Below, in pieces: positions 6,961 through 22,576 of a DNA stretch of 64,000 nucleotides. How positions within the stretch are numbered: position 1 is the stretch's first letter; every line of letters starts with the position of its first letter. The translations under genes and the position numbers were made by a program. The notes under the pieces were generated by a model, which saw only the letters and a program-made list of their open reading frames with translations, was not told the origin of the DNA and searched no databases. Source of the stretch: Salipiger pallidus (GTDB lineage Bacteria; Pseudomonadota; Alphaproteobacteria; Rhodobacterales; Rhodobacteraceae); the NCBI RefSeq assembly GCF_014643635.1, contig NZ_BMJV01000004.1:62001-126000 (forward strand). The letters run 5' to 3'.

Positions 6961-6999
6961 ACGCCGATGCGGCCCGTCTGGCCCAAGGGGGTATGGCAC

Positions 7000-8307
7000 A
7001 TGCAACTGCCCCCGCCCGCGATCCTCGCCGGCCTCTACGCGGTGCTGATCGCCGTAGGTGGCGCTTTGCTGATGCTGCCTGCGGCGACAGCGATGCCGAT
7101 TGCGTGGTCTGACGCGATCTTCACCGCCGCCTCGGCCGTGACTGTAACCGGCCTCGTGCTGTCGGACACCGGCAGCCAGTTTACCCTGCTCGGGCAGGGG
7201 ATCATCATGGTGCTGATCCAGCTGGGCGGGCTGGGGCTTATGACCTTTGCGGTGCTGCTGTTGTCCATGCTGGGCCTTCCCGTGACCATCTCGCAGCGCA
7301 TTTTCCTGCGTGAAGATCTCAACCAGACCTCGATCAGCGACCTGCTCCATCTGGTCCGCATGATCCTCAAGACCGTGCTGGCCTGCGAACTTTTGGGCGT
7401 CGCGTTGCTGTCTTGCGTCTTCGTTCCGGAATTCGGCTGGGGCAAGGGACTTTGGCAGGCACTTTTCCATACCGTCTCGGCGTTCAACAACGCGGGGTTT
7501 GCGCTCTTTCCCGACAGTTTGTCGCGCTATGTGGGCAACCCTATCGTCAACCTCACAATCCCGGCGCTCTTTATCTTCGGGGGACTGGGGTTCATCGTGG
7601 TCACCGAGGCCTACGGCAAGCGCCGCTGGAGGGCGTTCTCGCTGCACACAAAGCTCATGGTGGTCGGCACGCTGGCTCTGATCGTCTGGTCCGTTCTGAC
7701 ATTCGCCGCGCTGGAATGGACCAACCCTGCGACGCTGGGCGGGCTTGCCAGTACCGGTGACAGGCTGTGGGCCAGCTGGTTCCAGGGGGTGACAACCCGC
7801 ACCGCAGGCTTCAACACCGTCGACATCGGTGGGATCCATGACAGCACTTCGCTGATGTTCATGTCGCTTATGGTAATCGGCGGCGGCAGCACCTCGACCG
7901 CCGGGGGAATCAAGGTCACCACCTTCATCGTGCTGCTGCTTGCGACCATTGCCTTCTTCCGCCGCAGCCAGCAGCTTCATGTCTTCGGGCGGAGCATCGG
8001 GGCCGAAGAGATCATGAAGGTCTTGGCGCTGACCATGGTAAGCCTGATGACGGTACTGGTCGCGATCTTCCTCGTGACCCTGTCCCACGATGGGAACTTC
8101 ATCGATCTTGCGTTCGAGGTGACCTCGGCCTTCGGTACGGTCGGATTGTCACGGGGGACCACCGGAGAGCTGGACGGCTTCGGTCGCGCGGTGATCATCG
8201 CGGTGATGTTTGTCGGCAGGGTTGGCCCCCTGACCCTGGGTTTCTTCCTTGCAACACGATCCAAGCCACGAGTTGGGTACCCTGCGAGCAAGGTTTATCT
8301 CGGGTAG
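7000..8307 (+). CDS. ktrB: Potassium uptake channel subunit KtrB (TrkH family)
   Basis: This is a polytopic protein of about 435 aa with four pore repeats. The filter segments read AVTVTGL, SAFNNAGF, TTRTAGFN and SAFGTVGLS, the order expected for the KtrB/TrkH pseudo-tetramer. The flexible gating loop is represented by IGGGSTSTAGGIK in the third repeat. I prefer ATG 7000 (MQLPPP) because AAGGGGG lies at 6985-6991; the in-frame ATG 6967, 7 nt after ktrA, has no clear ribosome site but would add 11 residues. With KtrA it forms a Na+-stimulated K+ uptake system of use in osmoadaptation. Confidence 0.93.
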   Translation: MQLPPPAILAGLYAVLIAVGGALLMLPAATAMPIAWSDAIFTAASAVTVTGLVLSDTGSQFTLLGQGIIMVLIQLGGLGLMTFAVLLLSMLGLPVTISQRIFLREDLNQTSISDLLHLVRMILKTVLACELLGVALLSCVFVPEFGWGKGLWQALFHTVSAFNNAGFALFPDSLSRYVGNPIVNLTIPALFIFGGLGFIVVTEAYGKRRWRAFSLHTKLMVVGTLALIVWSVLTFAALEWTNPATLGGLASTGDRLWASWFQGVTTRTAGFNTVDIGGIHDSTSLMFMSLMVIGGGSTSTAGGIKVTTFIVLLLATIAFFRRSQQLHVFGRSIGAEEIMKVLALTMVSLMTVLVAIFLVTLSHDGNFIDLAFEVTSAFGTVGLSRGTTGELDGFGRAVIIAVMFVGRVGPLTLGFFLATRSKPRVGYPASKVYLG

Positions 8308-9003: not shown

Positions 9004-10644
9004 ATGAAAGACACGGCGGATACCATGAAACTTCATCAGGGACTGGCACAGGCGCTTGTCGCGCATGGGGCAACCCAACTGTACGGCCTTGTGGGCGATG
9101 CCAACCTCTTCATGGTGGACGCTTACGTTGATGCCGGGGCAGGGCGCTACATCGCCTGCACCCATGAAGCCAACGCTGTACTTGCCGCCATCGGCTATGC
9201 TCAGGTCACGGGCACCACCGGTGTCGCGACCATCACCCATGGACCGGCCCTGACCAACGCGGTTACCGCGCTGGCTGAGGCGGCGCGGGGTGGCATCCCG
9301 CTCGTGCTGCTGTGCGGCGATACCACGCCCGGTGACCTTCAGCATCTCCAGAACATCGATCAGCGCGAAGTGGTCGCGGCCTCCGGTGCCGCCTTCGTCG
9401 AGATGCGCAGCGCGCTGACCGCCATCGAGGACCTGGACCGCGCCTTTCGCATCGCGGCCCATCGCCGCTGTCCGGTGGTGTTCAACATGCGCGTGGACAT
9501 GATGTGGGACGGGTTTGCCCCGTCCGAGATCGCCCCGGTGCCGACGGTGACACTGGCACCTGCCTCGGAAGCTGGAATCGAGGATGCGGCCGGCATGCTT
9601 GCCTCGGCCCGGCGTCCGCTGATCCTTGCCGGGCGCGGCGCCTGCACCCCCGAAGCGCGCGCCGCCCTGATCGCGCTGGCGCGCCGGATCGAGGCGCCGC
9701 TGGCCACCACGCTCAAGGCGCAGGGTCTGTTCGAGGGCGAAGCCTTCAACCTCGGCATTTGCGGCGGGCTCAGCCATGCCACGGCGATCGAGGCGATTGC
9801 CCAGTCGGACTGCATCCTCGCCTTCGGTGCCAGTCTCAGCAAGCATACCACCGAGGAACGCGCCTACACCCGTGGCAAGCGGGTGGTGCAGGTGTTGCCT
9901 GACATGGAGGAAACGCCGCGCCTCGATGTGCCGTCCCTACGCCTTGTCGGGGACATCGCGGGCACCGCGCGGGCGATCACCGACTTGCTGGACGTGGCAG
10001 AGATCCCCGGATCGGGGGCCACAGACGACCTTGCGGACAAGCTTGCCGCCGAGGCCGAGGCCTTCGCAACCGTGCCCGCTTTTGCTCCGACGGCGCCTGG
10101 TACCGTCGACATGGTCCCGGCGCTGCGCCGCCTGCACCAAGCGTTGCCGAAAGAGCGGGTGCTGGTTGCCGACCTCGGGCGGTTCGTCACCACCGCGTGG
10201 CGCAACCTGCCGGTCACCCGGCCCGAAGATCTTGTCTACACCTCTCATTTCGGCTCGATCGGGCTAGGGCTCGGCGAGGCCATCGGCACGGCCACGGCCA
10301 TCACTGACCGGCCCACGGTGCTGGTCGCAGGTGATGGCGGCTTCACCCTGTCGGGCCTCAGTGAGCTGGTCACCGCCGTGCGCGAACGGGCCGACCTGAT
10401 CGTGATCCTCTGCAACGACGGCAGTTATGGCGCCGAACACGTCCAGTTCACCAATCGCAAGATGGACCCGGAGCTGTCGATGATCGCCCGCATCGACTTT
10501 GCCGAGACTTGCGCGACCTTGGGTTTTGCCACCGTCAAGGTCACGGACGAGTCCAGCCTCGATGCTGCTTGTGCCGCCATTGAGGGCCGCAGCGGTCCGG
10601 TTCTTGTCGACCTGCGCCTCGATGCCGAGAAAATCGACATGTAA
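9004..10644 (+). CDS. Thiamine diphosphate-dependent enzyme (acetolactate synthase / glyoxylate carboligase-like)
   Basis: This 546-aa protein has the three-domain layout of ThDP decarboxylases and carboligases. The N-terminal PYR domain carries the catalytic Glu in CTHEANAVLAAIGYAQ (about residue 56). The middle domain includes LAGRGA. The C-terminal PP domain carries the ThDP/Mg motif GDGGF ... ILCNDGSYG. The substrate cannot be read from sequence. Its place at the head of a cluster of ureide-type hydrolases suggests it condenses or decarboxylates a 2-oxoacid such as glyoxylate formed downstream. Start 9004 is used; ATG 9025, with GGCGG upstream, is an alternative. A promoter probably lies in the AT-rich 8920-8970. 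Confidence 0.85.
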   Translation: MKDTADTMKLHQGLAQALVAHGATQLYGLVGDANLFMVDAYVDAGAGRYIACTHEANAVLAAIGYAQVTGTTGVATITHGPALTNAVTALAEAARGGIPLVLLCGDTTPGDLQHLQNIDQREVVAASGAAFVEMRSALTAIEDLDRAFRIAAHRRCPVVFNMRVDMMWDGFAPSEIAPVPTVTLAPASEAGIEDAAGMLASARRPLILAGRGACTPEARAALIALARRIEAPLATTLKAQGLFEGEAFNLGICGGLSHATAIEAIAQSDCILAFGASLSKHTTEERAYTRGKRVVQVLPDMEETPRLDVPSLRLVGDIAGTARAITDLLDVAEIPGSGATDDLADKLAAEAEAFATVPAFAPTAPGTVDMVPALRRLHQALPKERVLVADLGRFVTTAWRNLPVTRPEDLVYTSHFGSIGLGLGEAIGTATAITDRPTVLVAGDGGFTLSGLSELVTAVRERADLIVILCNDGSYGAEHVQFTNRKMDPELSMIARIDFAETCATLGFATVKVTDESSLDAACAAIEGRSGPVLVDLRLDAEKIDM

Positions 10645-10767
10645 GGCGACCCCGAGATCCCGCCGCCAGCGCAGCGGGTTAACATGGCCGGCCACTGGCA
10701 TTTGCTCCCCAACCGTCAGGGCGCCGGTCGAATGACAAAGAAGCACATCAACAGGAGAGAGTCTCTC

Positions 10768-11799
10768 ATGAACCTCACCCGACGCAACTTCCTCCGGTCC
10801 TCGGCCGGTGCCGCGGCCCTCGGCGCAATCGGCGCTCCAGCGTTCGCCCAAGACGACACCTTCATCGTCAACATGTTCGGCGGCCGCTGGGAAAACGACT
10901 GGCGCCAGCACGTGATGCCGAAATTCGCCGAGCAGATCGGCCGTGATTTCGACCTCGATATCGGCCTCGGCATGGCTTGGATTTCCAACTTCCAGGCCGC
11001 CGGTCCCGAGAACCCTCCGTTCCCGGCCGTCATGCTGAACGAGAAATACACCGCGATGATCCGCAATGACGGCTACTTCGCGGAACTGACCCCCGAGAAC
11101 GTGCCGAACATGGCAGACGTGATCGAACCCGCGATCCTCAAGGGCAACACCGCCGTCACCGGCATGCTGGCGCCGCTGGTCATCGCCTACCGCACCGACC
11201 TCGTGTCCGAGCCGCCCAAGGGCTGGGCCGACCTCTGGGACGAGCGTTTCAAGGGCCAGCTGGGTCTTTACAAGATCACCAACTCCGCCGCGACCATGAT
11301 GGCGATGTGGGCGGGCGAGCACTTCGGTTCGGGCCGCGACGACATCGAGACCGCCGTTGCCAAGTTCAAGGAACTTGGGCCCTTCCCGCAGATTGGCTAT
11401 TCCGCGCAGCTCACCCCGCTGCTGTCGCAGGGTCAGGTGGCCGTCGCTCCGATCGACCTCGGCGAGGTCAAGTCCATGCAGGAAGCCGGCATCCCGATCG
11501 ACTACGTCGTGCCTGAAGAAGGCATGCTGGTGTTCGACCACTCGTTCTCGGTCTTCGAGAACAGCCCCGACAAGCAGACCGGCTTTGACTACGTCAACTT
11601 CGTGCTCAGCCCCGAAATCCAGCTGTGGATGGCGGAAAACTGGCTCATCGCACCGACCAACAAGACGGTCGAGCTGCCCGAGGAGCTTCAGAAGTGGCCG
11701 CTGCAGCCGGAAGTCGTCAGTCAGGCAATCCGCTTCGATTGGGACGAGACGCTGGCCATCATGCCGGCCCTGAACGACCTCTGGGAACGGACGATATAA
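10768..11799 (+). CDS. ABC transporter substrate-binding protein, PotD/spermidine-putrescine family
   Basis: This 343-aa protein begins with a Tat signal (RRNFLRSSAGAAALGAIGAPAFA, twin Arg at residues 5-6), so it is exported folded to the periplasm. The mature part has PotD-like features such as KGWADLWDERFKGQLGLY and VVPEEGMLVFDHSFSVFEN. The start ATG at 10768 has AGGAGAG upstream; the longer in-frame ATG at 10732 would bury the Tat motif. The ATPase gene follows 3 nt after the stop. The family carries polyamines but also amino acids, opines and other small nitrogenous solutes, so the ligand is open; the neighbouring hydrolases point to a ureide or N-acyl compound. Confidence 0.85.
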   Translation: MNLTRRNFLRSSAGAAALGAIGAPAFAQDDTFIVNMFGGRWENDWRQHVMPKFAEQIGRDFDLDIGLGMAWISNFQAAGPENPPFPAVMLNEKYTAMIRNDGYFAELTPENVPNMADVIEPAILKGNTAVTGMLAPLVIAYRTDLVSEPPKGWADLWDERFKGQLGLYKITNSAATMMAMWAGEHFGSGRDDIETAVAKFKELGPFPQIGYSAQLTPLLSQGQVAVAPIDLGEVKSMQEAGIPIDYVVPEEGMLVFDHSFSVFENSPDKQTGFDYVNFVLSPEIQLWMAENWLIAPTNKTVELPEELQKWPLQPEVVSQAIRFDWDETLAIMPALNDLWERTI

Positions 11800-11802
11800 G
11801 AC

Positions 11803-12861
11803 ATGGCGACGGTTGAAGTCAGGGATCTGCGCAAGCGGTATCAGGATTTCCTCGCGCTCGACGGGGTGTCGCTGAAGGCCGAAACCGGCCAGCTGGTGAC
11901 CCTCCTCGGGCCCTCGGGATGCGGCAAGAGCACCACCTTGCGGTGCCTTGCGGGCTTTCTCGAGGCGAATGGCGGCGAGATCACGGTAGACGGGGAGTCC
12001 ATCCTCGGGACCCCTGCCAACCGTCGCGGTTTCGGCGTGGTTTTCCAGAACTACGCTCTTTTCCCGCACATGACCGTAGCCGAGAACATCGGCTACGGAC
12101 TCAAGATCCAGAAGCTCCCCAAGTCCGAGATCGAGACCCGCGTCTATGACGCCATGAAGCTGGTCCGGCTCGACGGCCTGGGCGACCGGCTGCCGCGCGC
12201 CATCTCTGGCGGCCAGCAGCAGCGCGTCGCCTTGGCGCGCGCGCTGGTGCTGAAGCCGAAGCTCCTGCTGCTCGACGAGCCACTGGCCAACCTCGATGCG
12301 CGGCTGCGCGACGAGGTGCGCTGGCTGATCCGTGACCTGCAACAGCAGTCCGGCATTACCGCCTTCTACGTCACCCACGACCAGTCCGAGGCGATGGCCA
12401 TGTCCGACATGGTCGCCGTGATGAAGGCGGGCCGCGTGGCGCAGTTCGCCACCCCGCGCGAGATCTACCAGAAGCCCACCGAACGCTACGTCGCCGACTT
12501 CACCGGCGAGGCGAATTTCATCCCCTGCCAGTCGGTGACACCGCAGGGTGAAGGCCGCTATGCCATCACCGCCGCCGGTGCCACGCTGGAACTCGAAGGC
12601 GTGCCGGGCATCACCGGCCCCGCCGAGCTGCTGCTGCGCCCCGAGGCACTGTCGCTGACCGCGCCCGAGGCAGGCACCTTCAAGGGCACGGTGACGAAAT
12701 CGGCCTTCCTTGGCGCCGCGCTGCATTGCGAGATAACGCTGCCGGACGGCTCCATGCTCAAGCTTGCTGCGGAACCCAACCACAAGGTTCGGACCGGCGA
12801 AGTGGTCGGCATCGCCATCGACAACAGCCATGCGTGGCTGATGCCCGAGGTCGCGCCATGA
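11803..12861 (+). CDS. ABC transporter ATP-binding protein, PotA-like
   Basis: This 352-aa ATPase has Walker A GPSGCGKST (about 33-41), Q-loop VVFQNYALFPHMT, signature SGGQQQR, Walker B LLLLDEP, the switch His in YVTHDQSEA, and a C-terminal TOBE domain from about residue 240. That set is typical of the PotA/CysA/UgpC import ATPases. It overlaps the following permease by ATGA. It energises import together with the binding protein and the two permeases. Confidence 0.93.
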   Translation: MATVEVRDLRKRYQDFLALDGVSLKAETGQLVTLLGPSGCGKSTTLRCLAGFLEANGGEITVDGESILGTPANRRGFGVVFQNYALFPHMTVAENIGYGLKIQKLPKSEIETRVYDAMKLVRLDGLGDRLPRAISGGQQQRVALARALVLKPKLLLLDEPLANLDARLRDEVRWLIRDLQQQSGITAFYVTHDQSEAMAMSDMVAVMKAGRVAQFATPREIYQKPTERYVADFTGEANFIPCQSVTPQGEGRYAITAAGATLELEGVPGITGPAELLLRPEALSLTAPEAGTFKGTVTKSAFLGAALHCEITLPDGSMLKLAAEPNHKVRTGEVVGIAIDNSHAWLMPEVAP

Positions 12862-13712
12862 GCTTGAAGAACCCGAAGCTCTTGCTCGCCATCCCGGCGA
12901 TCGCGCTCATCTTCGTGTTCATGATCCTGCCGATCACCAACATGGTCGAGATGAGCTTTCGCACGCCGGGGACCTCCGCACCCTTCGGCGACGATTACAC
13001 CGCGCAGCATTACGACCGCATCCTGAGCGACGGCCACTACTGGTCCGTCCTCATTCGGTCGCTGCTGACGGCGGGGCTCGTGACAGTGCTTTGCCTGATC
13101 GTCAGCTACCCGATCGCCTGGCACATGTCGAAGGCGCGGGGGATGAAGGCGGTGTTCCTTTATGCCTGCATCGCCTCGCCGCTGATGACCGGCGTGCTGG
13201 TGCGCAACTTCGGCTGGATGATCGCCGCCGCGCTCAACGGTCCGCTGAACCAGACGCTGCTTGGCCTCGGCATCATCGAGATGCCGCTGCGGCTGCTGTT
13301 CACCCAAGGGCTGGTGATCCTGGCGCTGGTGCATGTCTTTGTGCCCTTCATGGTGCTGCCGATCAACAACGCCCTGCGCAACATTTCCCCGACGCTGATC
13401 GAGGCATCCTCATCGATGGGCGCCACCCGCCGCGAGGTGTTCCGCGACATCATCCTGCCGCTGAGCTTTCCGGGCATCTACCCCGGCATGATCCTTGTCT
13501 ATGTCCTCGCTGTCGCGGCCTATGTCACCCCGGCGCTGCTGGGCGGAGCCATGGTCAGCTACATGCCGACGCTCATCATCGGAGAGCTGACCGGCACCTT
13601 CCAGTGGCCCTTCGGTTCGGCGCTTGCCATCGTGCTGTCGGTCTCCACCATCCTCGTTGTCGCGCTGTTCACCGCGCTGACCTCACGTCTCATGGAAAGG
13701 TCCAAGGCATGA
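12858..13712 (+). CDS. ABC transporter permease, PotB-like
   Basis: This 284-aa inner-membrane protein has about six helices and the EAA loop (EASSSMGATRREVFRDIILP, about residues 182-201) that docks on the ATPase. The ATG overlaps the ATPase stop (ATGA), so translation is coupled. It pairs with the next gene as a heterodimeric permease. Confidence 0.92.
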   Translation: MSLKNPKLLLAIPAIALIFVFMILPITNMVEMSFRTPGTSAPFGDDYTAQHYDRILSDGHYWSVLIRSLLTAGLVTVLCLIVSYPIAWHMSKARGMKAVFLYACIASPLMTGVLVRNFGWMIAAALNGPLNQTLLGLGIIEMPLRLLFTQGLVILALVHVFVPFMVLPINNALRNISPTLIEASSSMGATRREVFRDIILPLSFPGIYPGMILVYVLAVAAYVTPALLGGAMVSYMPTLIIGELTGTFQWPFGSALAIVLSVSTILVVALFTALTSRLMERSKA

Positions 13713-14521
13713 GCGAGATGACCAACACCTTCGGCCACCAGAAGACGATGAACATCGGCTTCGGCGTGCTCATCGTGCTGCTCTACGTGTTCCTGATGGC
13801 CCCGCTGGTGATGATCGTCGGCGCGTCCTTCACCGAAAGCCTGATGATCGAGTTTCCGCCGCAGGGCCTGTCCTTCCGCTGGTATTTCGAGTTCTTCAAC
13901 CGTCAGGACCTTGTGGATGGCCTGCTCATGTCTCTGCGCATCGGCGCCGTGACGGCCATCGTCACCATGAGCGTGGCGATGATGGCGGCGATGGCCGGGC
14001 AGGTGATCGCGGGCCGGCTGTCGGGCTGGTTCCAGCTGGGCATGACGCTGCCCCTGCTGGTGCCCGAGCTGCTGACCGCGGTGGGGCTGCTGTTCTTCCT
14101 CTACAAGATCGAGATGGCCAAGACCGTCCTGGGCCTGCAGATGGGGCACATCCTGATGTCCTTCCCCTATGCCTACGTGTCCATCGCCGCGGCGATGCGG
14201 CAGGTGCCCCATTCGCTGGAAGAGGCCTCGCAGAGCCTTGGCGCGAACGGCTGGCAGACCTTCCGGCTGGTGATCCTGCCGCTGGTGATGCCGGGGCTGG
14301 CGATGGGCGGGATCTTTGCCTTCATCAACAGCTTCGATCTCTACACCATCTCGCTGCTGCTCAAGCCGCTCGGGGGCAACACCCTGCCGCTCGCGCTGTT
14401 CGACTTCCTGACCTACGAGTTCAAGCCCACCGCCGCCGCCGCCGCGACCCTGTCGATCCTGCTGTCGATTGCCGGCGTGGCCCTTGTGCAGAGACTCGTC
14501 GGCCTGCAACGCGCTTTCTGA
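13709..14521 (+). CDS. ABC transporter permease, PotC-like
   Basis: This 270-aa inner-membrane protein has about six helices and an EAA loop (EEASQSLGANGWQTFRLVIL). Its ATG overlaps the stop of the first permease (ATGA). Its stop codon lies within a small UUCG-capped hairpin, after which the enzyme genes begin. Confidence 0.92.
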   Translation: MSEMTNTFGHQKTMNIGFGVLIVLLYVFLMAPLVMIVGASFTESLMIEFPPQGLSFRWYFEFFNRQDLVDGLLMSLRIGAVTAIVTMSVAMMAAMAGQVIAGRLSGWFQLGMTLPLLVPELLTAVGLLFFLYKIEMAKTVLGLQMGHILMSFPYAYVSIAAAMRQVPHSLEEASQSLGANGWQTFRLVILPLVMPGLAMGGIFAFINSFDLYTISLLLKPLGGNTLPLALFDFLTYEFKPTAAAAATLSILLSIAGVALVQRLVGLQRAF

Positions 14522-14534
14522 CCCTTCGGGGTCA
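14519..14534 (+). promoter_or_regulatory. UUCG-tetraloop hairpin between the transporter and enzyme genes
   Basis: TGACCC-TTCG-GGGTCA is a perfect 6-bp stem with a UUCG tetraloop that includes the permease stop codon. No T-run follows, so it more likely stabilises or processes the operon mRNA than terminates it. Confidence 0.5.
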
Positions 14535-14564
14535 GGAGCCTCCCTTTCGAAAGACCGCAAGACC

Positions 14565-15299
14565 ATGACCGACCCGTCGGCACCCCCACGCATTCTCTAT
14601 CAACTGGCCAGCCCGCTGCACCTGACCGCCGGCACCGAGGTGGTGGGCAAGCGTTTGCGGATGCTGCGCGGCTGGGCGCCCTCGGCCGAGGTCGCGATCG
14701 ACTCGCCGCAGACCGGCCCCCGCGCCATCGAAAGCACGGCGGATGCGGCGATGGTCTTCCCCGCCCTGCGCGAAGCGGCGGCGGACTGGTCGGACAAGCA
14801 CGACGCCGTGCTGATCGGCTGCTTCAGCGATCCCGCCGTCGATGCGCTGACCGAGATCGCCGGCATCCCGGTGATCGGCCCCGGCGAGGCGGGGATGCTT
14901 GCCGCCGTGCAGCTAGGCGAGCGCTTTTCGGTGCTGTCCTCCGACCCCACGCCCAAGGGCCTGCGCCGCCGCATTCGCGGCATCGGCATTGAGGGCAGTT
15001 TCGTGTCCGAGATCACCGTGGGCGGATCGGTCGCCGATCTCAACCGCGACCCGGACACACACCTGCCCGCCATCGTCGAACGGGCGCAAAGCTGCGTGGC
15101 GCAGGGGGCCGACGTGCTGGTGCTGGGCTGCTTCGCGCTGTCCTTCATCCCGGGCCTGCCCGAACGGCTCACACAGGCGGTCGGCGTGCCGGTCGTCAAC
15201 CCGGTGATCGCCGGTCTCAAGGCCGCCGAGGCGGCTGTCCTCTACCGCGCGGGCCTGCCGCGCGGCGCAATGCAACAGACCATCCGGAGTGCGGAATGA
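14565..15299 (+). CDS. Asp/Glu/hydantoin racemase-family protein (allantoin/hydantoin racemase-like)
   Basis: This 244-aa cytoplasmic protein has the two catalytic cysteines of the family, in LIGCFSDPAVDAL and LVLGCFALSF. Hydantoin and allantoin racemases (HyuE, HpxA) are the closest types by these motifs; AroM and Asp/Glu racemases share the fold. ATG 14565 is the first usable start in frame. Its stop overlaps the ATG of the next gene (ATGA). In a ureide-type pathway it would interconvert stereoisomers before a stereospecific hydrolase acts. Confidence 0.8.
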   Translation: MTDPSAPPRILYQLASPLHLTAGTEVVGKRLRMLRGWAPSAEVAIDSPQTGPRAIESTADAAMVFPALREAAADWSDKHDAVLIGCFSDPAVDALTEIAGIPVIGPGEAGMLAAVQLGERFSVLSSDPTPKGLRRRIRGIGIEGSFVSEITVGGSVADLNRDPDTHLPAIVERAQSCVAQGADVLVLGCFALSFIPGLPERLTQAVGVPVVNPVIAGLKAAEAAVLYRAGLPRGAMQQTIRSAE

Positions 15300-16195
15300 C
15301 CTCCCCAGCTACCCCCGCCATGGCCCAGGACGATTTCCAGGCCCTCGTCGATACGGCCCGTTTCCAGCGCAGCCGCCGCATCCCGATCCCGGATTTCGCA
15401 TACCCCGAGGGCGTGAAGATCGCGGTGAACTTCACCCTAGATTTCGACGCGATGCTGCTGCGCCGCCTGCTGAACGAGCCTTGGGGCCAGAAGGCCAAGG
15501 GCGAATTTGGTGGCCGCGTCGGCGTCTGGCGCATCATGGAGATGTTCGACGAAGAGGAGGTCAAGGTCACGCTCTTCACCCCCGGTCGCATCTGTGAGCT
15601 CTACCCCGAGGTGCTGAAGGAGGTCGTGAAGAACGGCCACGAACTCGCTGACCACATGTGGGAGCACGAGGTTTATCCCGACCCGGTCATCGAGGACGCG
15701 CATCTGACCCGCACTCTCGCCGCGCTGAGTGCCGTGCACGGCAAGCCCATCACCGGCACCCGGTCGAGCCACACGCCCGGCCTGCTGAAATCCAAGGGCG
15801 TGGTCTACAACTCTTTCACCTCGGCCCATGACATGCCGTTCTACGAGCTGGATGCCCAAGGCCGGAACCCGATCCTGCAGCTGCCCTTTCACTACGCGCT
15901 CGACGACGCGATGTATTTCAGCTTCGGCTGGCTCGACACGCCCAACGATGCGCAGCGGGTCATGGATGTCGACGAGGTGTTCGAGATCTGGTGGGCGGCC
16001 TTCCTCCAGCAATACAAACAGGGCGGCTACGTCAACTTCCTGCTGCACCCGTTCGTGTCGGGCCATGCCATGCGGGTCGATATGATCCAGCGGCTGATCC
16101 AGCGGATGAAGACTCTGCCGGGCGTCTGGTTCCCGACCTGCGACGACCTTGCCCAGCACATCCTGACCAACCACCCGATGCCGGAGGCGAAGTAA
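15296..16195 (+). CDS. Polysaccharide deacetylase (NodB)-fold hydrolase, PuuE/HpPgdA-like
   Basis: This 299-aa NodB-fold protein keeps the metal-site residues of the HpPgdA/PuuE branch: NFTLDFDAM near residue 45 and GHELADHMWEHE near residue 112. There is no signal peptide or membrane segment, so it acts in the cytoplasm rather than on cell-wall polymer. In this branch PuuE is an allantoinase that hydrolyses a cyclic ureide. It is translationally coupled to the racemase and followed 4 nt later by a degenerate paralogue. The true substrate is unknown. Confidence 0.82.
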   Translation: MTSPATPAMAQDDFQALVDTARFQRSRRIPIPDFAYPEGVKIAVNFTLDFDAMLLRRLLNEPWGQKAKGEFGGRVGVWRIMEMFDEEEVKVTLFTPGRICELYPEVLKEVVKNGHELADHMWEHEVYPDPVIEDAHLTRTLAALSAVHGKPITGTRSSHTPGLLKSKGVVYNSFTSAHDMPFYELDAQGRNPILQLPFHYALDDAMYFSFGWLDTPNDAQRVMDVDEVFEIWWAAFLQQYKQGGYVNFLLHPFVSGHAMRVDMIQRLIQRMKTLPGVWFPTCDDLAQHILTNHPMPEAK

Positions 16196-16199
16196 TCCC

Positions 16200-17138
16200 A
16201 TGCCCTGGAAAGACCATTACACCACCTCCGACGAGATCGGCATCCGCGACAGCGCCATTCAATGGCCCGCCGGGCAGCAGATGGCGCTTGGCCTGACGGT
16301 GAACCTCAACCCCGCCGGGGCTGGAAAGGGCATCACCGCCAAGGATCTCGCCTACCCGACATGGCATTATGGGCTGAACGAGGGGCTTGACCGCTTCCTG
16401 TCGCTTTTTGCCGAACTGGGCATCCGCGCCACCTTCGCCACCCCCGCCGTGATCGCCGAAAGCTATCCCGACGTGATCGAACGCATCCTCGGGCAGGGCC
16501 ACGAGATCGCGGCCCAAGGGCTTTACGGCGAGAACCTCGCGCTGCTTGCCCCGGGCGTCGAGGCAGAGCACATGGACCGCGCGTTGGAGGTGCTTGCCCG
16601 CGTCACTGGCGTCGCGCCGAAGGGATGGTTCGCCCTGTCACGCCCTGACGATCGCGCCGCCACCGGCTGCGCCACGGATGGCACCATCGGCCTGCTCAAG
16701 GCGCGCGGCTACGACTACTTTGGCAACGGCCTTGCGGATGACGCGCCCTATTACTGGGTCTCGGACCCCGCAAAGCAGGAGGCGCTGCTTGCGCTGCCCT
16801 ATTACTATCATTTCGACGATACATTCTTCCTGATGTTCCCCCGCGAAGGAACGGGCCTCGAGCGCCCGCAAGCGCTGCTGAACAACTGGCGGGCCGAGTT
16901 TCGGGCGCAGTATCGCCGGGGCCGCTACTTCAACCTTTGCGTCTCGCCGGCACGCTCGGGCTGGGGGCACCGCTTCGACAACCTCGCCACCGTGCTGCGC
17001 GAGGCCATGGCGCACCCCGGCGTCTGGGCCGCCACCGGCACCGAGATTGCCGGGCATTGGCTGGTTGCTCATCCCGCCCACACCTCGCTGAAGCTCGCCC
17101 CGAGCATCTGGCAGGATTACGAAGACAGCCTGAGCTGA
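16200..17138 (+). CDS. Degenerate NodB-fold paralogue, probable pseudoenzyme or partner subunit
   Basis: This 312-aa protein is homologous in layout to the preceding hydrolase, but its key sites have changed. The DFD strand is replaced by TVNLNPAG (about residues 33-40), and the HxxxH region reads GHEIAAQGLYGENL (about 100-113), with both later His residues absent. The frame is intact and within an operon, so it is probably selected for. It may be a structural partner of its active neighbour or bind ligand only. The next gene starts 3 nt after its stop. Confidence 0.75.
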   Translation: MPWKDHYTTSDEIGIRDSAIQWPAGQQMALGLTVNLNPAGAGKGITAKDLAYPTWHYGLNEGLDRFLSLFAELGIRATFATPAVIAESYPDVIERILGQGHEIAAQGLYGENLALLAPGVEAEHMDRALEVLARVTGVAPKGWFALSRPDDRAATGCATDGTIGLLKARGYDYFGNGLADDAPYYWVSDPAKQEALLALPYYYHFDDTFFLMFPREGTGLERPQALLNNWRAEFRAQYRRGRYFNLCVSPARSGWGHRFDNLATVLREAMAHPGVWAATGTEIAGHWLVAHPAHTSLKLAPSIWQDYEDSLS

Positions 17139-17141
17139 GCC

Positions 17142-18278
17142 GTGACCGACATGATGAAGAGCGAAGACATCCTCCAAGGCCTCATGGCCTGGGTCGAGAT
17201 CGATACTCCCACCGGCGACGTCGTGGGCATCGGCAAGCTTGTCGACCTGATCCAGTCGCAGTTGGACCCGCTGGGCTGCGACATTGAACGCATCCCCGGC
17301 CGTGACGGCATGGGCGACCACCTTGTCGCCCGGTTCAAGGGCGGCGAGGGGCCAGGCGTGCTGGTCACGTCACATATCGACACGGTCTGCGCCCCGGGCG
17401 CGGTCGAGATCCGCCGCGACGGCGATCGCCAGTATGGGCCCGGCATCGCCGACATGAAGGGCGGCGGCTATCTCGCGCTCTGTGCCATGCGCGAGATCGT
17501 CGCCAGCGGCACGCCGCTGCCCGGCCCGGTGACGCTGATCTACAACTCTGATGAGGAGATTGGCTCTCCGACCTCGCATGAGCTGATCCAGGCCGAGGCG
17601 CGCAAGATGGGCACGGCGCTTATCCCCGAGCCCGCTCGCGGCGATGAGGCGATCACCTTCCGCAAGGGCCGCGCCAAGTACACGCTCGACTTCCACGGGG
17701 TCGAAAGCCACGCCGGGTCGGCCTTTGCTGACGGGCGCTCTGCGATCTTGCAGATGGCCCGCACCATTGGGCAGCTTGAGGCGATGACCGATCTTGCGAC
17801 AGAAACCACCGTCAACGTCGGCCGCGTGCGCGGCGGCACCGAGCCCAACGTCGTCGCGGGCCACGCCGCCTGCGACATCGACGTGCGCTTTGCCGACGAT
17901 GCGCTGGGGGTGGCCGTCGAGGATGCGCTCAAGGCGCTGCAATCGCATGACCCCGACGTCACGATCACCCTCTTGGGCGAGATCGAGAAGCCGAGCCTTG
18001 CGCGCACGCCGGAAACCCTCGCCATGTTCGCCCGGGCGCGAGAGGTCAACGCGGCCCTCGGCGCCCAGATGATCGAGACCCGCTCCGGCGGCGGCAGCGA
18101 CGGCAATTTCACTTGCGCCGCGGGCGTGCCAACCCTCGACGGGCTCGGAGCCATCGGCAACAACTGGCATTCGCCGCAGGAACACATCCTCGTCTCGCCG
18201 CTGGCGCGCCGCATGGCGCTGCTGCGCGAACTGATCCTGACCTATGCGGGCACCCGCCCCACTGGAGAGACCCAATGA
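17142..18278 (+). CDS. M20-family metallopeptidase/amidohydrolase (carboxypeptidase G2-like)
   Basis: This 378-aa cytoplasmic enzyme has all five metal-ligand blocks of clan MH: SHIDTV, GIADMKGG, NSDEEIGSP (with the catalytic Glu pair), IPEPAR and NNWHSPQEH. A dimerisation domain lies between about residues 170 and 290. M20 enzymes cleave N-acyl and N-carbamoyl amino acids; allantoate amidohydrolase and carboxypeptidase G2 are members. The GTG start at 17142 is used, with ATG at 17151 or 17154 as alternatives. The following cupin overlaps it by ATGA. In context it probably opens the linear product of the NodB-fold hydrolase. Confidence 0.86.
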   Translation: MTDMMKSEDILQGLMAWVEIDTPTGDVVGIGKLVDLIQSQLDPLGCDIERIPGRDGMGDHLVARFKGGEGPGVLVTSHIDTVCAPGAVEIRRDGDRQYGPGIADMKGGGYLALCAMREIVASGTPLPGPVTLIYNSDEEIGSPTSHELIQAEARKMGTALIPEPARGDEAITFRKGRAKYTLDFHGVESHAGSAFADGRSAILQMARTIGQLEAMTDLATETTVNVGRVRGGTEPNVVAGHAACDIDVRFADDALGVAVEDALKALQSHDPDVTITLLGEIEKPSLARTPETLAMFARAREVNAALGAQMIETRSGGGSDGNFTCAAGVPTLDGLGAIGNNWHSPQEHILVSPLARRMALLRELILTYAGTRPTGETQ

Positions 18279-19012
18279 ACCCCAGCTTAGGACAGACCCG
18301 TTCCGAGATCCGCCGCAACCACGCGCTGCTGACCCCGGAAAGCCACGAGTGGATCACCCAGCCGGACTGGCCGGGGGCAGAGATCGCCTTCCTCATCAGC
18401 CCCGACATGGGCGCGAAATTCGCAATGGGTCTCGTGCGGTCGGCGCATGGCCTGAACGATATTGCCCCCGCCGCCCCCGGCGTCGCGCGCTTCGTCTTCG
18501 TGCTCGACGGCGAGATCAGCGTCTCGTCCGGCGAGACGCTCGGCCTCGAGTGCTATGGCTTCCTGCCGCCGGAAACGGACGTGACCGTCAACGCGACGCC
18601 CGGAGCCTCCTTCCTGCTGATGGAATGGCACTTCGTGGCACGCGGCGACATCCCCGCGCCGGTCTTCGGCAAGCTCTCGGACATCGAGGGCACGCCCCTG
18701 CGCGGCGACGATTGGCTCATGGTGCAGAAGATGCTGCCCACCGAGGCCGGGTTCGACGGCGAGGTCAACATCATGACCTTCCACCCCGGAGCCTCGCTTG
18801 CCTACGTGGAGACGCATTTCATGGAACACGGCCTGCTGATGCTGGACGGCGGCGGGGTCTACCGGCTGGATGACCGGTGGTATCCGGTCGGCAAGGGCGA
18901 CGCGATCTGGATGGGCCCGCACGTGCCGCAATGGTTCGGCGCGCTGGGGCGCACGCCGTCGCGTTACCTCATCTACAAGAACTACAACCGCTCTCCGCTC
19001 GAGCGGCGATGA
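18275..19012 (+). CDS. Bicupin, (S)-ureidoglycine aminohydrolase (AllE)-like
   Basis: This 245-aa protein has two cupin barrels and no signal peptide. It begins GQTRSEIRRNHALLTPESH, as AllE/YlbA proteins do. The C-terminal barrel has the metal-binding pattern of AllE (YVETHFMEHGLLMLDGGGVY, then IWMGPHVPQWF). AllE releases ammonia from ureidoglycine. The start ATG has GGAG upstream and overlaps the M20 stop. The two-barrel match makes membership of the family likely, but the exact substrate could differ given the divergent neighbours. Confidence 0.82.
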   Translation: MNPSLGQTRSEIRRNHALLTPESHEWITQPDWPGAEIAFLISPDMGAKFAMGLVRSAHGLNDIAPAAPGVARFVFVLDGEISVSSGETLGLECYGFLPPETDVTVNATPGASFLLMEWHFVARGDIPAPVFGKLSDIEGTPLRGDDWLMVQKMLPTEAGFDGEVNIMTFHPGASLAYVETHFMEHGLLMLDGGGVYRLDDRWYPVGKGDAIWMGPHVPQWFGALGRTPSRYLIYKNYNRSPLERR

Positions 19013-19017
19013 CCGGC

Positions 19018-19938
19018 TCAGCCGCCATAGTTCACGAAGATCGTCTTGATGGACGCGGCAAAGGCCGCGGACGAGGCCGTCGGGGCCCGTCCGGCCATGC
19101 GACAGCAGGCCACGGGCGGGCTTTCGAATGGCAGGTCCAGCAGCTCCACGAAGGCGAGACGCTCGCGGCGGATCTGCAGGAAACTGCCAAAGACAATTCC
19201 GATGCCCATGCCGCTTTCGACCATCTGGCGCAGCAGGGTAAAGCTGTTGGTGTTCATTACCTCGCGCACCTCCACCCCTGCCTGCGCCAGGGCGTTCTCG
19301 AGCAGATGGCGCATGGGGATCGAGGTATCAGGAAAGATCACCTTTTCCCCGTCGATTTCCGACAGCCGCACCTGCCGCAGCCGTGCCATGGGATGATCAA
19401 GCGATGTGATCGCGTAGGTGCGCCGGCGCAGGGTCGCCAGCGTCTCGATCTCGGGCGTAGGCGGGAAGTTGTAGCCAAGGCCGATGTCGATCTCGCCTTC
19501 CTGCAGGCGCTGGACGATCTCGCGGGTGTTCTCGACGACGATGTGGAATTTCAGCCCGGGATGGTTGTAGCTCATGTCGCGCAGGATGCCGGGCAGCAGG
19601 TCGGAGGCCAGCACCTCATTCACCCCCAGCCGCAATTCGCCCCGTTGCAGGCCGCGGAGCTCGGCAATCTCGTCCTGCGCGATGGTCAGCTCGTTGACCA
19701 CTGAGGCGCAGCGGAACATCAGGATCTCGCCGGCCTCGGTCAGCTCCAGCCCGCCACGACCACGATCGCGGCGGAACAGTTCGGTGTCGAGAGCGAGCTC
19801 GAGGTTCTTGATCTGCTTGCTCACAGCGGACGGGGCCACGTGCAGCTTGTCCGCTGCAGCCCGGAACGAGCCCTGCCGGGCGACCTCGATGAAATGCCGG
19901 AGGCCGGGCAGGCGTCCGAGAAGTGTGCTGGGTTGCAT
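19018..19938 (-). CDS. LysR-family transcriptional regulator
   Basis: This 306-aa protein has an N-terminal winged helix-turn-helix (GSFRAAADKLHVAPSAVSKQ, residues 23-42) and a periplasmic-binding-protein-like effector domain from about residue 95. Its 3' end converges on the bicupin with 5 nt between. Its 5' end is divergent from the flavoprotein, so it probably controls that gene and perhaps the long operon. The 48-bp divergent gap is short, so promoter and operator must overlap. Confidence 0.93.
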   Translation of the reverse strand: MQPSTLLGRLPGLRHFIEVARQGSFRAAADKLHVAPSAVSKQIKNLELALDTELFRRDRGRGGLELTEAGEILMFRCASVVNELTIAQDEIAELRGLQRGELRLGVNEVLASDLLPGILRDMSYNHPGLKFHIVVENTREIVQRLQEGEIDIGLGYNFPPTPEIETLATLRRRTYAITSLDHPMARLRQVRLSEIDGEKVIFPDTSIPMRHLLENALAQAGVEVREVMNTNSFTLLRQMVESGMGIGIVFGSFLQIRRERLAFVELLDLPFESPPVACCRMAGRAPTASSAAFAASIKTIFVNYGG

Positions 19939-19986
19939 CGGGGCCTTTCACGATCAAACTGCCAAGCGTCAAGGAGCGCAGCATAA

Positions 19987-21462
19987 ATGGACCAGATCGG
20001 CATTCAACACGACAATTTCCGAACTGCCGCGCTGGACGAGTTGGCCGTGGCGCTGGGGCACAAGGGCATACTGACCGCCCCCGGCGATTGCGTCCGCTAT
20101 GCCTCGGATCAATCGGGATTGCACGGAGCCGCGCCGCTCGCGGTTCTGCGTCCGGCGTCCACCGAAGAGGTCTCGGGCCTGCTCGCCATCTGTCACCGCC
20201 ACCGCATCGGCGTGGTCCCGCAAGGGGGGCGCACAGGCCTGTCGGGCGGCGCTTGCGCCCCTGCGGGCACGGTGGTGCTGTCCACCGAACGCATGACCGG
20301 CGTGATCGAGATCGACGAGGACGCCATGACCCTCACCGCATGGGCAGGCACCCCGCTCGAGACTGTGCAGGAGGCCGCGCGGACCGCAGGCCTCGATTAC
20401 CCGGTAGATATCGGGGCGCGGGGCACGGCCACCATCGGCGGCACCATCGCCACCAATGCGGGTGGTATAAGGGTGCTGCAGCACGGAATGACCCGCGCCA
20501 ACGTGCTGGGCCTCGAGGCGGTACTGGCAGACGGGTCGGTGATCTCGCGGCTGGGCAAGACGGTGAAGGACAACTCGGGCTTCGATCTCAAGCAGGTGTT
20601 CATCGGCTCTGAGGGTGTGCTGGGCGTGGTGACCCGCGCGGTCCTGCAGCTGCGCCGCTACGTGACGCAAAGCGCGCTGGCCCTGTTCGCCATGCCCGAC
20701 CACGACGCGGCGCTCAAATGCCTCGTGGCGGCGCGCCAGCGTTTCGGCAGCCGGATCACCGCCTTCGAGGGCATGTGGCCTGACTACTGGGATTTCGTCT
20801 GTCACGAGACCTCGCTTGCCAGCGCGCCGTTGGAGGGGCGGCACGGCTTCTACCTGCTGATCGAGATCGAGGCCGAGGCCGCCGGGAGCGAAGCCGAGCT
20901 GGAAGAGTTCTTTGCCGAGCTCTTCGAGCAGGAGCTTGTGGAGGACGGCGTGCTTGCCAAGTCCCTCAGCGAGGCGCAGGCGCTATGGAAGGTGCGCGAG
21001 GCAGTGGGCGAGGTGGACGGTGATTTCGGTCATCACATCAACTTCGACATCGGCGTGTCCCCGTCGGCACTTGGCCGGTTCTGCACTGCGGCCGATGCGC
21101 GACTGGCGCAGCTGCCCGAAGCGGGCGCTGCGCTCAAGGTCGGGCACGTGGGTGACGGCAACGTGCACCTGCTGGTGGCCCATGACGGCAGTGCCGCCGC
21201 CGAAGAGCGGATCGAGGCGGTGATCTACGCGCTTCTTGAGGAATGGGATGGTGCGGTTACCGCCGAACACGGCATCGGACGGATCAAGGCGCGCTGGATT
21301 TCGCACAGCCGCAGTGCCGAAGAACTTGCGATGATGCGTGGCCTCAAGGCGCAGCTGGACCCGCTGGGCATCCTGAACCCCGGAGCGGTGCTGCAGGCAG
21401 CACAGGACTCACGGGAGGGGAGGTGGCGATACCGCGCCAACCCGGCGCGTGAGCTTCCGTAG
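19987..21462 (+). CDS. FAD-linked 2-hydroxyacid oxidase/dehydrogenase (GlcD / D-2-hydroxyglutarate dehydrogenase family)
   Basis: This 491-aa flavoprotein has a VAO-type FAD domain (PQGGRTGLSGGA, TATIGGTIATNAGG, DLKQVFIGSEGVLGVVT). The C-terminal substrate domain carries the metal and catalytic residues in KVGHVGDGNVHLLV and TAEHGIGRIK. The family oxidises D-lactate, glycolate or D-2-hydroxyglutarate. It is divergent from the LysR gene and follows the ureide-type enzymes. A glycolate/glyoxylate role would fit the pathway but is inference. No GlcE or GlcF subunit lies next to it, which favours a stand-alone dehydrogenase. Confidence 0.87.
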   Translation: MDQIGIQHDNFRTAALDELAVALGHKGILTAPGDCVRYASDQSGLHGAAPLAVLRPASTEEVSGLLAICHRHRIGVVPQGGRTGLSGGACAPAGTVVLSTERMTGVIEIDEDAMTLTAWAGTPLETVQEAARTAGLDYPVDIGARGTATIGGTIATNAGGIRVLQHGMTRANVLGLEAVLADGSVISRLGKTVKDNSGFDLKQVFIGSEGVLGVVTRAVLQLRRYVTQSALALFAMPDHDAALKCLVAARQRFGSRITAFEGMWPDYWDFVCHETSLASAPLEGRHGFYLLIEIEAEAAGSEAELEEFFAELFEQELVEDGVLAKSLSEAQALWKVREAVGEVDGDFGHHINFDIGVSPSALGRFCTAADARLAQLPEAGAALKVGHVGDGNVHLLVAHDGSAAAEERIEAVIYALLEEWDGAVTAEHGIGRIKARWISHSRSAEELAMMRGLKAQLDPLGILNPGAVLQAAQDSREGRWRYRANPARELP

Positions 21463-21736: not shown

Positions 21737-22576
21737 CTAATGCTTGATCTCACCCGCCACCTGCCCGTAGGCCATCAGCGCGAAAAGGCCGGTGCCACCG
21801 AGGATATTCCCCAGCAATGCGCCACTGCCTACCGAAAGTGCATGCGCAACCCCGATCTCGCCTGACATCAGCAGCAGGAACAGCTCGGCTGAGCCGGCGA
21901 TCACGTGTGTGAATTCCGCGATGGCAATCAGGTAGGTGAAAAGGAAGATCACGAGGATCCCAGCGCTGCCGGCCGCGGGCATCATCCAAACGATGGCGGC
22001 AATGTAGAACCCCGAGGGGATGCCGTAGCGCAACGCCTCGGAAAAGCTCAGCTCTCCGAAATGCCGCGAGATCGCCAGCATCGAGTCCAGCGTTTCGGGT
22101 TTGAGCGTTCCGGCCCAGACACCCAAAGCCATGGAAAGGAACGTGCCGGCGAAGTTGGCCAGCAGGATCACAGACCACAGCCGCGCGGTGACCCAGAGCG
22201 TGTGCAGCTTGCGATGGGTCAGCAGCGGCAGGATAGCGCTCAGGGTGTTCTCTGTGAACAGCTGCAGCCGCCCCAGGATCACGAGGATGAACCCCACCGT
22301 GTAGCCAAGGTTTTCGATGGCGGCGCGATAGGGGTGGTCCTCGTAGATGCCGTGCAGGATGCCTTCCGCAAGCACCGAGGTCGAGATCCCCATGCCGGCT
22401 GCCACACCGGACCACCACAGGGACATCAACGGACGGCTGAGCTCATCGGTGCCGCTACGGTGGATGATCCCGTAAACGGATACGGCACTGAGGCCTTGGT
22501 TCTTTTCGATATCGCGCCGTTCCGAATGCGTCGGGTGACGAGGCTTGTTGGAGGGATCGGGTTCTGGCGTGGTCAT
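21737..22576 (-). CDS. Formate/nitrite transporter-family (FocA/NirC, YfdC-like) membrane protein
   Basis: This 279-aa protein has a 45-residue charged N-terminal tail and then six hydrophobic segments. FNT-type features include SLWWSGVAAGMGISTSVLAE and FTENTLSAILPLL in the first half and EFTHVIAGSAE in the second. It forms pentameric channels for formate, nitrite or other small monovalent ions. The YfdC-like subgroup has no settled substrate. It stands alone between the flavoprotein and the PQQ dehydrogenase, all three with gaps over 250 bp. Confidence 0.85.
   Translation of the reverse strand: MTTPEPDPSNKPRHPTHSERRDIEKNQGLSAVSVYGIIHRSGTDELSRPLMSLWWSGVAAGMGISTSVLAEGILHGIYEDHPYRAAIENLGYTVGFILVILGRLQLFTENTLSAILPLLTHRKLHTLWVTARLWSVILLANFAGTFLSMALGVWAGTLKPETLDSMLAISRHFGELSFSEALRYGIPSGFYIAAIVWMMPAAGSAGILVIFLFTYLIAIAEFTHVIAGSAELFLLLMSGEIGVAHALSVGSGALLGNILGGTGLFALMAYGQVAGEIKH

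Follow-up and report, generated by a model that had tools for sequence, protein, structure and literature searches.

A conserved twelve-gene block in Salipiger pallidus and its possible role as an accessory ureide-type catabolic operon

What can be said about a block of twelve genes from Salipiger pallidus that combines ureide-pathway reaction types with an importer of its own? The block lies at 9004-21462 of the window, by which we mean the whole stretch of 64,000 nucleotides that was analysed (bases 62001-126000 of contig C4, in a genome of 4.44 Mb). In our judgement the chances are about even that it represents a second, accessory ureide-type catabolic operon, running parallel to the canonical allantoin pathway through the steps proposed below. 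The observations on which this proposal builds are the gene content, the conserved gene order, the active-site residues, the loss of a metal site in one of the proteins, and a canonical allantoin set elsewhere in the genome. A previous sequence-only reading of the window had seen one catabolic unit with ureide-type chemistry and had left the substrate unnamed; this much stands, but its assignments to PuuE, AllC and Gcl and its polyamine-type importer do not. We class the block as a modified form of the ureide pathway, with the same series of reaction types, a non-orthologous, putatively ring-opening protein pair and M20 enzyme, in an accessory operon.

The canonical set resides on contig C2, where both parts of a PuuE-UraD fusion score above cut-off (503-505 bits for PuuE, 194 bits for UraD), a bicupin reaches 439 bits against NF040771 (bifunctional allantoicase/(S)-ureidoglycine aminohydrolase (UGlyAH); cut-off 350), and AllA is encoded as well. 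With these genes at hand, the block would constitute a second route. The earlier remark that uricase and xanthine dehydrogenase are missing holds for the twelve genes of the block; the genome was not searched for either enzyme, and it does carry the canonical allantoin locus on C2.

Conservation and rarity of the block

All twelve genes were found at the positions and in the orientations previously given, and their families agree with the earlier naming at the level of fold:

9004..10644, + strand: thiamine diphosphate (ThDP)-dependent enzyme of the acetolactate-synthase superfamily; catalytic Glu present (HEANA), so not Gcl-type
10768..11799, + strand: solute-binding protein (SBP), PotD/SBP_bac_8 class; its start, RRNFLRSS, is Tat-like
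11803..12861, + strand: ATPase of the ATP-binding cassette (ABC) importer, by profile matches; 44-48% identical to nucleoside-linked importer ATPases
12858..13712, + strand: ABC importer permease 1, PotB-like by profile matches
13709..14521, + strand: ABC importer permease 2, PotC-like by profile matches
14565..15299, + strand: RAC, Asp/Glu/hydantoin racemase family, with both cysteines (C86, C189)
15296..16195, + strand: PUUE1, protein of the NodB fold whose metal motif is intact (DFD, HMWEH, HPF); proposed to be the catalytic cyclic amidohydrolase
16200..17138, + strand: PUUE2, NodB-fold co-inherited partner with lost metal ligands (D to N, H...H to Q...G, HP to SP)
17142..18278, + strand: M20 amidohydrolase of the carboxypeptidase-G2 (CPG2) branch, zinc-ligand motifs intact
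18275..19012, + strand: bicupin of the UGlyAH type, above the TIGR03214 cut-off
19018..19938, - strand: LysR regulator, divergent from the GlcD-like gene; present in 19 of the 20 window-like loci
19987..21462, + strand: FAD-linked 2-hydroxyacid dehydrogenase, GlcD/D-2-hydroxyglutarate dehydrogenase-like by structure and profile comparison

From the SBP to the bicupin, the genes look like one coupled operon because they overlap by 4 bp or are separated by gaps of 3-43 bp (successive spacings of 3, -4, -4, 43, -4, 4, 3 and -4 bp); the ThDP gene lies 123 bp upstream of the SBP gene.

Relatives of the block were collected in a scan of genome contigs seeded with PUUE1, and the counts given here cover the best 80 of 117 relatives. 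The simple gene caller yields some wrong-strand frames, and only genes that a profile or an alignment confirmed were used as evidence. All twelve genes are collinear and on matching strands in 18 of the 20 loci that most resemble the window (L049-L068), at identities from 96% down to 47% and with a span of 10.0-11.1 kb between the starts of the ThDP and GlcD genes. Carriers of the block, among them many bacteria of marine and soil habitats, belong to eleven named genera (Sagittula, Salipiger, Donghicola, Celeribacter, Tropicibacter, Mameliella, Paracoccus, Stappia, Jiella, Rhodovulum and Agrobacterium), joined by one Hyphomicrobiales metagenome-assembled genome. One of the 18, Tropicibacter naphthalenivorans (L053), has several block genes that align only piecewise, which suggests decay or assembly errors; the Prosthecomicrobium locus (L066) is without the bicupin, and only PUUE1, PUUE2 and M20 were found in that of Mangrovicoccus (L065). 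Outside the block no family is common to more than 4 of the 20 loci, barring generic ABC ATPases at varying flank positions, and the flanking genes of these loci gave no useful clue to the substrate. With the gene order kept in 18 of 20 loci and flanks that are not shared, the twelve form one unit, and the limits of the conserved unit are 9004-21462, as originally drawn. The claim of a single catabolic unit is thus borne out by an order that is kept throughout and not only in pieces. The two further tallies used below, of 22 window-type rows and of 82 rows in all, both contain L040 and L063, which derive from one genome (Paracoccus haematequi); the 22 rows also include L065 and L066, each without some of the twelve genes, and L047/L096 and L045/L073 are duplicate records.

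The block is rare. Of the 292 genomes sampled from the order, 2 hold a PUUE2 match of at least 70%, namely those of S. pallidus itself and P. haematequi, and matches at E 1e-40 or better occur in 2 of these 292 and in 5 of the 385 genomes of a class sample, S. pallidus included. Neither of the two further genomes sampled from this genus had a PUUE2 match at E 1e-20. Among 30 listed plasmid matches of PUUE1, four were examined, and both annotated neighbourhoods are without such a block.

In the window itself, Pfam assigns a TrkH-type cation transporter (6967-8307, + strand) ahead of the block, and a formate/nitrite transporter family member (21737-22576, - strand) and a PQQ-dependent dehydrogenase propeller (22931-24697, - strand) beyond it.

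The NodB-fold pair and its nested arrangements

The two NodB-fold proteins had been taken for PuuE-like allantoinases, a naming that we had to abandon. As PuuE orthologues they fall far short, with 78.9 (PUUE1) and 74.8 bits (PUUE2) against the TIGR03212 cut-off of 424.6, and PUUE1 possesses a metal site that is absent from PuuE. Its NodB metal motifs DFD, H-M-W-[EQ]-H and HPF are retained in 82 of 82 rows, whereas PuuE of the same genome and the structures 3cl6, 1z7a and 3s6o carry HG(Y/W)(R/K)W and H(C/N)R instead; PuuE allantoinase is described as not metal-dependent in the available part of PMC10967932. The HxxxH, DD and HP motifs of PUUE1 are shared with 3qbu (HP0310) and 3rxz, so that it agrees in motifs and fold with the cyclic imide hydrolase group (HP0310/HxnM). 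HP0310 itself binds metal, as stated in an excerpt of PMC3084791, and is given as the nearest structural relative of the cyclic imidase HxnM in an excerpt of PMC9304392. The structure model of PUUE1 (pLDDT 85.4) has its nearest folds in 3rxz, 3cl6, 1z7a, 3s6o and 3qbu, a group of small-substrate NodB proteins, at TM 0.72-0.82, and the remaining matches among the 50 listed have a TM-query of 0.55 or less.

PUUE2 is modelled with the same fold (pLDDT 82.4). Its sequences form their own clade in a tree that carries long branches, and its placement beside PuuE in this tree is not relied on. It accompanies PUUE1 in 80 of the 82 rows, the exceptions being L088 and L090, the latter of which ends at a contig edge. 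The distances among PUUE2 proteins track those among PUUE1 proteins, with a Spearman coefficient of 0.87 over 80 loci and of 0.56 over the 51 of L076-L128 with both genes, and 0 of 499 permutations were as high in either case; this correlation also reflects species descent. The metal site of PUUE2 (D, H...H, H) is intact in 23 of 53 loci that contain the pair alone, reads D, G...H, H in 5 of 5 loci with RAC and M20, and is intact in none of the 22 window-type rows, where 19 have N, Q...G, S, two have D, N...G, S, and one is gapped. The simplest reading of these sequences would make PUUE1 the catalytic subunit and PUUE2 a partner turned pseudoenzyme, and the two may form a complex.

The pair occurs in three nested ARRANGEMENTS: the twelve-gene block, a RAC-PUUE1-PUUE2-M20 core, and the PUUE1-PUUE2 pair alone. 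The core is found in Bradyrhizobium (L070, L072, L074 and L075), downstream of an Opp-type binding protein and with a GcvA-type LysR gene upstream on the opposite strand. In all four of these loci a bicupin of another kind lies about 3 kb from RAC, likewise upstream on the opposite strand; it is 31-32% identical to the bicupin of the window and scores 290 bits to TIGR03214 in L070, the Bradyrhizobium locus that was profiled. As this divergent bicupin recurs near the core in 4 of 4 cases, the bicupin step is probably not there by coincidence. Beside the L070 bicupin, a protein of 353 residues (L070:4262-5323, - strand) has no match in NCBIfam at E 1e-10 or in Pfam at E 1e-6.

Reyranella, Acetobacteraceae and other alphaproteobacteria retain of the core only the pair, next to varying neighbours, which in annotated loci comprise an SDR protein, an LIV-type binding protein, an LLM monooxygenase, a 2-oxoglutarate (2OG)-Fe(II) oxygenase and a one-cysteine racemase-family protein. 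The Reyranella-type racemase-family protein that follows PUUE2 in L082, L091 and L094 was not counted as a racemase because its first cysteine is missing (LGGGDP). In L108 (434-8111) a 2OG-Fe(II) oxygenase precedes PUUE1, PUUE2 and HyuB, with HyuA about 0.6 kb beyond, an arrangement that places the NodB pair beside a hydantoinase of the ATP-dependent type. An expansion of the PuuE-profile family is seen in several of these genomes, with 7 matches better than E 1e-40 in L086 (Vineibacter), 8 in L087 and 4 in L099 (both Reyranella), and 8 in the genome of L094 (Rhodospirillales).

The remaining enzymes and the allantoin and hydantoin alternatives

The bicupin is, judged by profile and residues, a genuine UGlyAH-type protein. 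It passes TIGR03214 (UGlyAH) with 253.7 bits at a cut-off of 200 and keeps the equivalents of Arabidopsis E235, H237, H241, Q275, Y287 and K291 (numbering checked on 4e2q), of which we take the first four to be Mn ligands and the last two to be substrate residues. The motifs VE(T/V)HFMEHG and PHVPQWFG are each present in 20 of 20 sequences, and identity is 37% to E. coli AllE against 29% to the second bicupin of the same genome. For this and the following proteins, the neighbourhoods of plasmid relatives were examined for a subset of 15 listed matches each (six for the importer, four for M20, one each for RAC and the bicupin). Among those listed for the bicupin, the nearest belong to Deinococcus and for the most part carry the annotation allE; the single locus examined is an operon of allantoinase, allantoate amidohydrolase and allE. 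The AllE-like naming was thus sound, and the earlier statement that each member looks divergent, apt for the NodB, M20 and ThDP proteins, fails for the bicupin.

RAC has the PF01177 fold (117 bits), and its cysteines C86 and C189, presumably catalytic, are invariant in 9 of 9 aligned sequences; the motif of the first cysteine, GCFSDP, is present in 25 of 28, the other three being the Reyranella-type proteins mentioned above. Its best solved relative is the allantoin racemase 5lfd, a weak match at 63.5 bits, and it has no NCBIfam match. In the one neighbourhood examined, some 6 kb separate its nearest plasmid relative (45%) from HyuAB. For M20, the nearest solved structure is carboxypeptidase G2 (1cg2), to which the conserved motifs SHIDTV, GIADMKGG, DEE, EPAR and WHSPQE align with what we take to be its zinc ligands. 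The proposed identity as an AllC-type allantoate amidohydrolase was rejected, as M20 groups in the CPG2 branch and a search of the genome with TIGR01879 (AllC/HyuC) at E 1e-3 returned four places, the window protein not among them; E. coli AllC matches it with 35 bits (E 1e-5). The nearest plasmid relatives of M20 (42-43%) adjoin HyuA/HyuB in three of the four loci examined.

Nor is the ThDP enzyme the glyoxylate carboligase for which it had been taken: it scores 97.2 bits against TIGR01504 (Gcl), far under the cut-off of 711.2, and retains the catalytic Glu that aligns to a Val of E. coli Gcl. A search of the genome for Gcl with the same profile found none above cut-off. The GlcD-like flavoprotein has its best structural match in 3pm9 (292 bits) and, with 247.6 bits against TIGR00387 (GlcD), remains below the cut-off of 567.9.

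These enzymes bear on two alternatives. According to the first, the block degrades plain allantoin in both enantiomers after high-affinity uptake, duplicating the canonical pathway with a regulator of its own. A racemase, a ring-opening enzyme, a hydrolase for the carbamoyl group and a true UGlyAH-type bicupin would indeed mirror the allantoate amidohydrolase route step by step, and the closest listed plasmid relatives of the bicupin are the Deinococcus allE genes, one of them in the allantoinase operon. However, the canonical set is already in the genome and its PuuE is near-universal in the order (286 of 292 genomes) while the block is rare, the metal site of PUUE1 is absent from PuuE, and M20 stands outside the AllC branch. 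We therefore regard this alternative as unlikely, as it is unlikely that plain allantoin is the reason for keeping twelve more genes.

The second alternative, which we also find doubtful, is that the substrate is a 5-substituted hydantoin or a cyclic imide unrelated to allantoin. In that case PUUE1/PUUE2 would be a hydantoinase or imidase and M20 an N-carbamoyl-amino-acid hydrolase, the bicupin would have been recruited for some other hydrolysis, and the ThDP and GlcD proteins would take the 2-oxo and 2-hydroxy acids produced. The motifs of PUUE1 would suit this, in that they fit the metal-binding HP0310/3rxz group to which HxnM is related (in the part available of PMC9304392), as would the CPG2-like M20 and the location of some RAC and M20 plasmid relatives beside HyuAB. 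Speaking against it is the bicupin, which retains every UGlyAH ligand and substrate residue checked; a bicupin also reappears near the core in the Bradyrhizobium arrangement.

Substrate class and the proposed route

The importer had been described as of polyamine type. Its subunits do match profiles of the PotABCD class, all of them under the cut-offs (SBP 38 of 582 bits, ATPase 325 of 355.6, permeases 158 of 348 and 108 of 326), so that the SBP was rejected as PotD; its Pfam TAT_signal score of 21.3 bits is just below the cut-off of 22.7. The plasmid relatives of the importer are 35-48% identical and show the same subunit order in five of the six loci examined; in the sixth, L158, no further importer match was found beyond the binding protein. 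In each of the six, a 2OG-Fe(II) oxygenase adjoins the binding protein and a nucleoside hydrolase (4 of 6) or a pseudouridine-5'-phosphate glycosidase (PsuG; 4 of 6) is near, two Thioclava loci among them being near-copies. The polyamine-type assignment is thus not upheld. A polyamine-derived substrate, suggested by the importer class and by relatives of HP0310 that an excerpt of PMC3084791 reports beside polyamine importers, appears very improbable, as no subunit reaches a Pot cut-off and the relatives sit with nucleoside or nucleobase genes. Taken together, the relatives of importer, M20, RAC and bicupin speak for a cyclic ureide of nucleobase origin, and not a polyamine, as the likely substrate.

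Relatives of the Thioclava 2OG oxygenase are found in PUUE-pair loci as well, at 52-54% identity in six and 37-40% in two more of the 60 loci that are not of window type. Among solved structures, this oxygenase comes closest to an ethylene/succinate-forming-type enzyme (238 bits), followed by a probable iron/ascorbate oxidoreductase (196 bits), with 129 bits to thymine dioxygenase, and the neighbouring nucleoside hydrolase has its best matches in uridine/pyrimidine-type families, below their cut-offs.

We infer the following order of steps for a substrate of this class. The SBP and ABC importer would take up a nucleobase-derived cyclic ureide, such as an allantoin with modifications or N-substituents, or else a 5-aminated hydantoin related to it; RAC would interconvert the enantiomers of this compound. 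PUUE1, acting as a cyclic amidohydrolase that depends on metal and has the apparently dead PUUE2 as its partner, would open the ring to a carbamoyl acid of the hydantoic or allantoic type, from which the CPG2-type M20 could strip the carbamoyl group to leave a geminal diamine. The bicupin would then swap an amine for a hydroxyl, yielding a 2-hydroxyacid of the ureidoglycolate type that might be converted to glyoxylate, where the canonical AllA encoded on C2 could act, or be oxidized by the GlcD-like flavoprotein, and the ThDP enzyme may handle the resulting 2-oxoacid.

A number of points weigh against this accessory ureide route. The functions of all block proteins are predictions, and the parts given to the ThDP and GlcD-like enzymes are conjectural. 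The bicupin missing from L066 was not found in the DNA examined of L065 either, nor in that of Methylobacterium L069, where RAC-PUUE1-PUUE2-M20 is present. One of the four M20 relatives examined is without HyuAB, and the carboxylate-binding residue of CPG2 varies among the M20 proteins (RSGGG in 17 of 27, SSGGG in 7 of 27). The evidence for a link to nucleosides comes from relatives that are 35-48% identical, several of them on near-identical plasmids, and the comparison of importer neighbours had no control set of polyamine importers. The 2OG-oxygenase relatives occur in just 8 of 60 loci, a raw count without a chance rate, and mostly in related Reyranella-like lineages; they adjoin the PUUE pair only in L108, the other seven lying some 4-8 kb away. 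Finally, we had considered that the block hooks into the canonical pathway since its carriers have PuuE, as do 25 of 26 carrier genomes checked (out of 80 loci), and discarded the argument because the base rate in the order makes this co-occurrence uninformative.

A more specific version of the accessory route, which we advance tentatively and consider possible at best, is that of a dedicated pathway for substituted allantoins or oxidized-nucleobase hydantoins, run by a two-component amidohydrolase with an obligate, non-catalytic PUUE2 that would have lost its metal site stepwise. Candidate substrates in this scenario would be N-methylated allantoins, guanidinohydantoin/iminoallantoin, and 5-hydroxyhydantoins from damaged or modified nucleosides. 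For trimethylallantoin, formed in the C-8 oxidation branch of caffeine degradation, the available part of a 2015 review (PMC4408171) describes the racemase as undiscovered and further degradation as poorly understood. That branch would need a racemase for substituted allantoin and further hydrolases, although the link is conceptual only, as no methylxanthine genes are present in the block. For the other candidates, a narrow literature search over partly accessible sources returned no degradation route.

How does the block compare with known systems? It follows the allantoin route PuuE/AllB-AllC-AllE-Gcl in the order of chemistry by fold class and in the AllE/UGlyAH type of its bicupin, but departs from that route in having PUUE1/PUUE2 instead of PuuE, an M20 outside AllC and a ThDP enzyme other than Gcl, with the canonical set found elsewhere in the genome. 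Plasmid clusters of HyuA/HyuB, two M20 and one M28 protein contain the closest listed plasmid relatives of M20 and RAC and would perform similar proposed steps; in these, however, HyuAB takes the place of the NodB pair in ring opening, and no bicupin is annotated in the stretches viewed. With the NodB-fold cyclic imide hydrolases (HxnM, the Pseudomonas putida imidase and the related HP0310), the likeness of PUUE1, which shares motifs and fold with HP0310/3rxz, is set against its pairing with a degenerate partner in a ureide-type operon. The Pot-type importer clusters of Rhizobium, Neorhizobium and Thioclava have the same importer subfamily and subunit order (37-48% identical to the block's), but no match to the PUUE pair, M20 or bicupin in the stretches viewed. 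No paper on this cluster was found in the open-access literature, as far as its texts were accessible, which is weak evidence of absence. The part available of PMC11698098, on marine purine cross-feeding, lists allantoin racemase and ureidoglycine aminohydrolase among purine-pathway genes and contains nothing matching the twelve-gene block.

Two sets of plasmid loci deserve mention in their own right. In L154, L156, L157, L159 and L160 (Thioclava, Rhizobium and Neorhizobium) the Pot-type importer is accompanied by a 2OG-Fe(II) oxygenase and by genes for nucleoside hydrolase or for pseudouridine glycosidase/kinase, possibly an uncharacterized system of modified-nucleoside utilization. In L150, L151, L153 and L161 (Roseomonas, Acuticoccus and Ketogulonicigenium) the module of HyuA/HyuB, two M20 proteins and an M28 peptidase recurs, in some cases with an annotated LLM oxidoreductase or Asp/Glu racemase.

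For the family, the PUUE1/PUUE2 pair displays what may be the stages of an enzyme decaying into a partner subunit, all of them in living lineages. Should the reading of the block as a pathway for substituted allantoins or oxidized-nucleobase hydantoins prove true, it would provide the racemase and the later hydrolases still lacking for these substrates. For the organisms, the upkeep of so well conserved a unit of twelve genes alongside an existing allantoin pathway suggests that some dissolved organic compound rich in nitrogen is valuable enough to merit a pathway of its own.

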